DNA from: Rhodobiaceae bacterium
GTDB lineage: Bacteria; Pseudomonadota; Alphaproteobacteria; Rhizobiales; JANQQB01
Assembly: GCA_028285165.1 (NCBI GenBank)
Contig: JANQQB010000276.1
Location: 1 to 32,899, forward strand
DNA: 32,899 bases
Direction: 5' to 3'
In this document: positions 2,447-3,915 of the stretch, piece by piece
Position numbering within the stretch: the first letter of the stretch is position 1
Layout of the letters: every line of letters starts with the position of its first letter
Notes under the pieces: model-generated
Seen by the model: the letters and a program-made list of their open reading frames with translations, nothing else
Databases searched by the model: none
Told to the model about the DNA's origin: nothing
Made by a program: the position numbers and the translations under genes

Positions 2447-3121
2447 ATGAGTGATTTTGCGCTTTTCGGCGTCAATACGGCCAACCCGCAGACCGCTACG
2501 TCAGCATCGAGCGACAATTCCGAACTGGCCAGCGATTTCGATACGTTCCTGACGCTGCTCACGACGCAACTGGAAAACCAGTTGCCGACCGATCCCCTGG
2601 ATTCCAACCAGTTCACCGAGCAGTTGGTGCAATATTCCACGGTGGAACAGCAGATCAAATCGAATGAGCACCTGGAGAGCATTCTGGGCGCGTTGTCGAC
2701 CGCAAATGTTGCGAGCCTGGCCAGCTATATCGGAACCGAGGTCGCGGCTTCCGGCGAGACCACCCAGCTCGTCAACGGCGAAGCGACCTGGGCGTTCGAT
2801 GCCGCCAGCCCGGCAGCGGAAGCCACGATCCGCATTCGCGACGCATCCGGCAACGTGGTTTACAACGAAGTGAGGTCGCTGGAGAGCGGCAAGGGGTCGT
2901 TCGTCTGGGATGGACGCAGCGATACCGGAGTTCAGATGCCGGACGGCTTCTATACGATTTCGATCAACGCCCAGAACCAGGGCCGGCCGGTCAATGTGTC
3001 GACCAACGCTGTGGAAGGCCTTGTGACGGCGATCGACACAACCGGGACCGAACCGACGCTGACCGTGGACGGCCAGCGCGTGCCGCTGTCGGCCGTCAGT
3101 TCGATCAAGGGCGCGAGCTGA
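2447..3121 (+). CDS. flgD: Flagellar hook assembly (capping) protein FlgD
   Basis: DFDTFLTLLTTQLENQLPTDPLDSNQFTEQLVQYSTVEQQIKSNEHLESI and FlgD Ig-like region (GSFVWDGRSDTGVQMPDGFYTISINAQ). Confidence 0.95.
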   Translation: MSDFALFGVNTANPQTATSASSDNSELASDFDTFLTLLTTQLENQLPTDPLDSNQFTEQLVQYSTVEQQIKSNEHLESILGALSTANVASLASYIGTEVAASGETTQLVNGEATWAFDAASPAAEATIRIRDASGNVVYNEVRSLESGKGSFVWDGRSDTGVQMPDGFYTISINAQNQGRPVNVSTNAVEGLVTAIDTTGTEPTLTVDGQRVPLSAVSSIKGAS

Positions 3122-3222
3122 TCGATCCCTGCTGCCTCCGGGCTAGTACCTCTGAGCAGAAGTCCTGACGCGTTTGATGGTGAAGATTTTCCCTTTGGCT
3201 AGGCGCGTTGTGCAGCGCGATC

Positions 3223-3246
3223 GCAACGGCGATGTTTCGCCGTTGC
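3223..3246. repeat. Hairpin H1
   Basis: GCAACGGCGA-TGTT-TCGCCGTTGC, 10 bp perfect stem. Confidence 0.9.
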
Positions 3247-3256
3247 CCTTTCCTGA

Positions 3257-3280
3257 TCAAATCGGAAACATCCGATTTGA
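3257..3280. repeat. Hairpin H2
   Basis: TCAAATCGGA-AACA-TCCGATTTGA, 10 bp perfect stem. Confidence 0.9.
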
Positions 3281-3330
3281 CGCGCATCGGGCAAACAACG
3301 CAACGACGTCCAAAGGGCAAATGTTCCCCA

Positions 3331-3356
3331 CCAAACACGGATGTTTCCGTGTTTGG
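3331..3356. repeat. Hairpin H3
   Basis: CCAAACACGGA-TGTT-TCCGTGTTTGG, 11 bp perfect stem. Confidence 0.9.
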
Positions 3357-3367
3357 CAGCTAAAGTA

Positions 3368-3395
3368 GCGCAAGTCGGAAACATCCGACTTGCGC
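3368..3395. repeat. Hairpin H4
   Basis: GCGCAAGTCGGA-AACA-TCCGACTTGCGC, 12 bp perfect stem. Confidence 0.9.
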
Positions 3396-3438
3396 GGCCG
3401 TCTTTCCCTGGCCTTCGGACGTCGTTGCGATCATTTCA

Positions 3439-3454
3439 TGGTGCTACAGCACCA
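3439..3454. repeat. Short hairpin H5 near the right arm of the element
   Basis: TGGTGC-TACA-GCACCA. Confidence 0.6.
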
Positions 3455-3572
3455 CATCAATGACCGCGCCTAGCCGAAGACCAGGAAAAGTCGGTCAAAC
3501 GGGTCAGGATTTCTGCTCAGAGGTACTAGCTGGCGAGGCAACTCAAAGTGTTACCGAGAGATTGATTACGGT

Positions 3573-3639: not shown

Positions 3640-3915
3640 ATGACCGAGAGTATTCGACCACGCGTAAAATATGTGATCGGACCGGACGGCAGTCCGTTGA
3701 CGGTCGCTGATCTGCCGCCGCCGACGACGCGGCGCTGGGTGATCCGCAGAAAGGCCGAGGTGGTGGCGGCCGTGCGCGGTGGACTTCTGTCGCTTGACGA
3801 AGCCTGCCAGCGTTACACACTGACTGTCGAGGAGTTTCTTTCCTGGCAAGCTTCGATCGACAACCACGGCCTTGCCGGCCTGCGCACGACGCGTATCCAG
3901 CAATATCGCGGGTGA
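3640..3915 (+). CDS. sciP: CtrA inhibitor SciP (DUF1153 family)
   Basis: VKYVIGPDGSPLTVADLPPPTTRRWVIRRKAEVVAAVRGGLLSLDEACQRYTLTVEEFLSWQ, characteristic SciP/DUF1153 sequence. Confidence 0.92.
   Translation: MTESIRPRVKYVIGPDGSPLTVADLPPPTTRRWVIRRKAEVVAAVRGGLLSLDEACQRYTLTVEEFLSWQASIDNHGLAGLRTTRIQQYRG

Follow-up and report, generated by a model that had tools for sequence, protein, structure and literature searches.

A palindromic element between flgD and sciP in a Rhodobiaceae bacterium is, with a probability of roughly 0.7, a non-autonomous MITE in which a shell moved by IS630 would carry two selected hairpin arms as cargo, the arms most likely having a use at the RNA level. The terminal inverted repeats of the shell would insert at CTAG with duplication of TA, most likely through an IS630-family transposase acting in trans, and the cargo would consist of homologous inverted hairpin arms with an asymmetric internal loop, kept by selection as single-stranded folds. 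Each arm would work on the strand running inwards from that arm's end of the element, so that a transcript arriving from either neighbour would encounter one arm able to fold correctly, and this arm could block the transcript's 3' end or protect it and so make the insertion harmless or useful. In the copy studied here, the loops would also have taken up two hairpin pairs as separate nested modules. By "the window" we mean the whole stretch of DNA that was analysed, 32,899 nucleotides in length.

The exact inverted ends that the initial annotation had described are borne out, as GCTAGTACCTCTGAGCAGAA at 3142-3161 recurs inverted at 3511-3530 without a mismatch. Complementarity is 94% between 3142-3177 and 3495-3530 and 93% between 3193-3207 and 3465-3479; 34 of the 36 outer bases match, whereas 20,000 stretches of 389 bp drawn at random from the window reach 21 at most. 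Folded as single-stranded DNA, the palindrome reaches -148.8 kcal/mol, whereas shuffled sequences average -66.3 (z = -18.6). The absence of a credible coding interior was also confirmed, with no long open reading frame and only chance frames of 61-77 amino acids. Other claims held in part. The outer CTAG, read earlier as part of the repeat or as a 4-bp target duplication, is indeed the target, but the duplicated part is probably the 2-bp TA alone, which begins 22 nt after the flgD stop; with the outside bases assigned to this duplication, the element proper extends over about 3146-3526. The motif GGCTAGGCGCG does pair with its inverse, but to see it just as the place where a long terminal repeat stops would be incomplete: its two occurrences are one motif in two homologous arms (Table 1). 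The initial annotation anticipated neither the homology of the two arms nor the inserted hairpin pairs, nor a distribution across the class.

Table 1. Features of the window copy and its neighbouring genes
Feature	Position	Strand	Basis or remark
flgD, upstream neighbour	2447..3121	+	PF03963, PF13860, PF13861
Left TA target duplication (probable)	3144..3145	.	Within CTAG 3143-3146; position shared by other copies; from the empty site in a related genus
Left terminal inverted repeat	3146..3177	+	Tip GTACCTCTGAGCAGAA, inner motif CCTGACGCGTTTGA
Left folded arm	3172..3336	+	Covariance model R1, 86.6 bits
Left-arm internal-loop strand GGCTAGGCGCG	3197..3207	+	Almost invariant across arm alignments
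Inserted hairpin, tip GATGTTTC, first of left-arm-tip pair	3223..3246	+	Absent there in copies C210 and C383
Inserted hairpin, tip GAAACATC, second of left-arm-tip pair, inverted	3258..3279	-	Absent in copies C210 and C383
Left-arm internal-loop strand CGCAACGACGTCC	3299..3311	+	Almost invariant across arm alignments
Central hairpin, tip GATGTTTC	3331..3356	+	Central pair missing from own-genome loci with abutting arms (gap -5)
Central hairpin, tip GAAACATC	3368..3395	-	Central pair missing from own-genome loci with abutting arms (gap -5)
Right folded arm, the left arm's module on the opposite strand	3392..3500	-	Covariance model R1, 109 bits
Right-arm internal-loop strand CGCAACGACGTCC	3417..3429	-	Sequence and alignment of arms
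Right-arm terminal hairpin TGGTGCTGTAGCACCA	3439..3454	-	Alignment of copies
Right-arm internal-loop strand GGCTAGGCGCG	3465..3475	-	Arm alignments
Right terminal inverted repeat	3495..3526	-	Inverted match to left end; other copies
Right TA target duplication (probable)	3527..3528	.	Same basis as the left TA
sciP (CtrA inhibitor), downstream neighbour	3640..3915	+	NF051866, PF06627

Copies were gathered by sequence search and by a covariance model of one arm (R1). BLAST found 69 matches to the palindrome sequence in the bacterium's own genome, many of them at contig ends, which removes the earlier concern that the element might be conserved only as a single copy at this locus. R1 matched 107 places in the same genome; 100 R1 matches (E up to about 1e-4) group into 71 loci, 28 of which hold more than one arm, and the two-arm loci are inverted pairs in 27 cases out of 27. 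The aligned copies share one layout of outer ends, left arm, centre and right arm, the two arms being a single module in opposite orientation with a long stem, an asymmetric internal loop (AGGCGCG / CGCAACGACG) and a terminal hairpin. The arms abut in copies C383, C132 and C173, whereas others, including the window copy, have a central hairpin pair of about 60 bp between them; of 50 inverted pairs of arms, 43 abut, with a gap of -6 to -3. The tip of the left arm also varies, being short in C210 and enlarged by a second hairpin pair in the window copy, whose left arm otherwise has the long stem and asymmetric internal loop of the module. Subfamilies within the genome have a common core and differ in their outer ends.

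The hairpins themselves follow a regular pattern. Among the own-genome loci fetched, the order GATGTTTC then GAAACATC is found in 47 of 48 neighbouring hairpins, which come partly from overlapping loci and are not all independent; the spacing within a pair is 9-12 nt in nearly all, and the stems vary by compensation. Such hairpins occur outside these elements too, in two other genomes, and are therefore read as separate nested modules. On this reading, the pairs were probably inserted into the window copy, rather than lost from the copies without them. Pairs of the GATGTTTC/GGTGTTCC type also sit in a different palindrome, CCCTCACCCGGCGC...GACCTCTCCC, in a genome from another family of the order (G040: L032, L036, L038, L041), which means that the hairpin pair is independent of the present element.

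Mobility could be followed in a related genus, distinct from that of the window, in which four genomes carry the family (G039, G079, G114 and G144). The G144 element at 1463853-1464119 is missing from the orthologous sites of the other three, and the G144 site minus the element and one TA, GACCCTAGAGACAGCC, aligns without gaps over 16 bases to CGCCCCAGGGACAGCC of G114. This base-exact empty site establishes TA duplication at CTAG in that genus, and by comparison with it the window copy probably duplicated TA as well. A G039 copy at 4248168-4248432 has no counterpart in three congeners. Copies are mostly 90-97% alike within G039 or within G144 and about 80% alike between these two genomes, as expected from recent amplification. 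The ends of the element show TAGTACCTCTGAGCAGAA at pairs of ends, with C preceding TA on one side and a varying base following TA on the other. Palindromes made of the two ends alone are also present in the bacterium's genome, at L060:1501-1526, at L061:1501-1524 and around L063:1501 (e.g. CTAGTACCTCTGAGCAGAGGTACTAG); their junctions differ, as if the interior had been deleted, and they are most simply deletion derivatives. The element thus has terminal inverted repeats, a TA target duplication (in the related genus), and dispersed copies without transposase coding capacity, all of which belong to the definition of an IS630-type MITE. Together with the empty orthologous sites and IS630-like ends, these findings support the MITE-like reading offered in the initial annotation.

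Members of the IS630 family typically duplicate TA at CTAG. G144 contains nine hits to PF13358 (the IS630 DDE domain), and the three kinds that were examined are named IS630 by NF033545. The IS630-family sequences of this genome end in TATACCAA...TGACCCA, TAGAGCGTCGGGCG and TAGTGGATTG: a group whose ends were set by near-identical copies ends in TATACCAAAGTCAGAAATCACTGACCCACATGA, a second kind carries CTAGAGCGTCGGGCG at each of its ends, which are separated by 1,056 bp, and a third ends in CTAGTGGATTG. Elements elsewhere end in TATACCAAGG...TTGACCC or TAGAGCATCGGGCG. Because the ends of the element resemble IS630 ends in the related genus, the mover is likely to be an IS630-family transposase acting in trans. 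We rate this as likely rather than demonstrated, since the end matches in G144 are short, were picked from several comparisons and partly after the fact, and PF13358 is absent from the bacterium's own genome; it is also absent from G335 and G043, both rich in copies. When the TAGTACC end was used to look for an autonomous partner, all matches were elements or solo palindromes of the ends, apart from two single ends that look like chance. There was no match to the element in plasmid and phage collections, and plasmids likewise gave none for three relatives.

The evidence for selection on the interior comes from the arms. Across 129 distinct arms, 93.4% of cells are paired, compared with 62.5% when shuffled and 31-46% when slid; the arm covariation score is 0.827 versus 0.240, and double changes occur in 30 of 31 pairs. 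The internal loop AGGCGCG / CGCAACGACG is almost invariant in the alignments. As the covariance model leans towards its own structure, the comparison of G·T with A·C was redone by plain alignment of the stem strands, which has no wobble preference. In one arm type G·T exceeds A·C by 96 to 10 (34 genomes in favour, 0 against), and in the other by 85 to 15 (28 genomes in favour, 1 against); the per-genome counts are the better guide, arms across related genomes not being independent observations. The terminal repeats lack such a bias (18:19, ungapped comparison). In each arm the excess is on the strand that enters the element from that arm's side, and this strand-specific bias leads us to conclude that the arms appear to be selected as single-stranded folds, either of RNA or of single-stranded DNA.

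Since the two arms point in opposite directions, they do not share a functional strand, so that a single transcript cannot use both arms equally and transcripts entering from either side each meet one good arm. A structured RNA, one of the options in the initial annotation, is supported in part for the interior, by its strong covariation and the one-sided G·T bias of each arm. A possible role for the arms, which fits this geometry, could be that of an RNA-level barrier or protector of 3' ends. No T-run of the kind found in intrinsic terminators is present in the arms. Copies are fewer between divergent genes (4/41 versus 19/64, p = 0.017), a weak signal that depends on crude gene calls; this depletion is compatible with an RNA-level role, and could equally be explained by the rarity of CTAG inside genes.

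Within the order, arm matches occur in 49 of 398 genomes, spread over 33 of 141 genera; the arm is also found in 35 of 395 genomes of the class and in 17 of 399 genomes of the phylum, where those outside the Alphaproteobacteria are few and mostly weak matches. A genome-wide name scan uses a loose pattern that gives chance hits in other phyla, and only hits confirmed by the arm model were counted. Carriers confirmed in this way include Hoeflea poritis, Nitratireductor soli, Roseibium aggregatum, an Afifella MAG, Kiloniellaceae MAGs, and Hellea and Robiginitomaculum MAGs. In some carriers both the shell around the arm and the second arm are different. Single arms lie in other TA-flanked shells (CTAGGGCCTGTGGACA..., TTAGGCTGTGGTGACC..., CTAGGGTCTGTTGAG...) at L137, L139, L152 and L159 (MAG.172), at L145 and L189 (Hoeflea poritis) and at L193 (Nitratireductor), and the second arm of these shells is of a different kind, its loop having ATATGCA...GCATGTCC. 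Arm matches of weak to moderate bit scores (L151, L185, L190, L210), with a GGCGTAC-type terminal hairpin, were also seen in MAGs labelled Oscillospiraceae, and these may reflect mis-binning or a wider spread. More tentatively, and with odds that we place below even, the arm could be a new class-wide structured module with a conserved asymmetric internal loop, which would bind a specific partner; IS630-type MITEs and other shells would have acquired this module as convergent pairs and would have spread it as bidirectional RNA elements at gene borders across the Alphaproteobacteria and sporadically beyond.

The main rival to an RNA-level role is recognition of single-stranded DNA during transposition, in which the arms, as single strands or as an extruded cruciform, would be recognised by the transposase or by a host factor and would have no role in RNA. 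The arms are always in mobile units, usually as the abutting inverted pairs described above, their internal loop hardly varies, and G·T is better tolerated than A·C in single-stranded DNA too, all of which would suit this explanation. IS630-type transposition with TA duplication, however, normally acts on double-stranded ends, none of the matches was a longer element combining these ends with the arms, no arms were seen in the IS630 sequences found, and the arms are also present in shells of other kinds, next to a different second arm, so that we hold a purely transpositional role to be possible but rather unlikely. Long inverted repeats are corrected by template switching, and a passive MITE might owe its palindromy to such correction between its inverted repeats, with an interior that has no function. 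The terminal repeats behave in this way, being matched within a copy, different between copies and free of G·T bias, and the solo end palindromes are in keeping with it. For the interior, this explanation is already disfavoured by the G·T excess of the arms and appears improbable, as correction would erase the non-complementary internal loop and would not yield a strand-specific G·T excess, both of which are found in dozens of genera.

The other explanations concern relationships to repeats that have already been described. A REP/REPIN-type repeat moved by an IS200-like (RAYT) transposase would account for modules in inverted pairs, and the genome does hold two Y1 transposase genes; high copy number and an intergenic position are further features that the element shares with REP. 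Neither gene is flanked by these repeats or tips, and REP/RAYT was rejected as a candidate; with no GTAG or CGTC tag beside 20-40 bp hairpins (the definition of PMC3733652) in the window copy, and with a TA duplication, long terminal repeats and a far larger unit, we regard this explanation as very improbable. REP dimers nested in palindromes have been reported (PMC3733652). As a separate observation, head-to-head CGTC-tagged REP hairpins (CGTCATCACCCGAATTTTTCGGGTGATCCA) lie about 90 bp downstream of a gene for a Y1 (RAYT-like) transposase (C298, L073:939-1086); CGTC repeats have been reported as unassociated with transposase genes (PMC3733652). The CIR, the CcrM-associated intergenic repeat of Caulobacter, is another alphaproteobacterial repeat that combines a pair of hairpin arms with terminal TA (PMC2229807). 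It is about 110 bp long, has no end-to-end terminal repeat and carries GANTC in a terminal loop, and in these last three respects the element is unlike it; identity with CIR was rejected, as GANTC is present in 1 of 131 arm tips and absent from the window copy.

The element could also belong to a family already described under another name, such as RIME, Bru-RS or an unnamed MITE of ISfinder. RIME is about 100 bp long. Bacteria of the same order carry palindromic repeats between genes, RIME in Rhizobium and Bru-RS in Brucella (cited in PMC2873474 and PMC2267715), and the units given for Bru-RS in PMC2267715 are 103-118 bp, against 265-380 bp for the elements here. The comparison with these two families covered their description and size. 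Paired arms with this internal loop were not described in the literature searched, and we judge a known identity to be unlikely. In Rfam, nothing reached the gathering score in a covariance search, the best of the weak matches having E = 0.57, so that the palindrome corresponds to no catalogued family there. The closest likeness is with IS630-type MITEs (RUP with IS630-Spn1; Correia/NEMIS), which also have terminal inverted repeats, TA ends, little or no coding capacity, dispersed copies and likely movement in trans. The element differs from them in its length of 265-380 bp, its two covarying arms, its strand-specific G·T bias, its nested hairpin pairs, its class-wide distribution and its exchangeable ends. 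We call it a member of an IS630-type MITE superfamily with a conserved, ornate interior.

Bacterial MITEs have mostly been regarded as passive deletion derivatives. Here the fold of the interior is kept in dozens of genera though nearly all of its paired positions have changed, and the strand bias separates a shell that acts at the level of DNA from a cargo that appears to act at the level of the single strand, within one small element. The family therefore provides a testable case of a MITE with its own selected structure, and the arm model R1 can be used to annotate hundreds of unannotated intergenic repeats, which also break draft assemblies.
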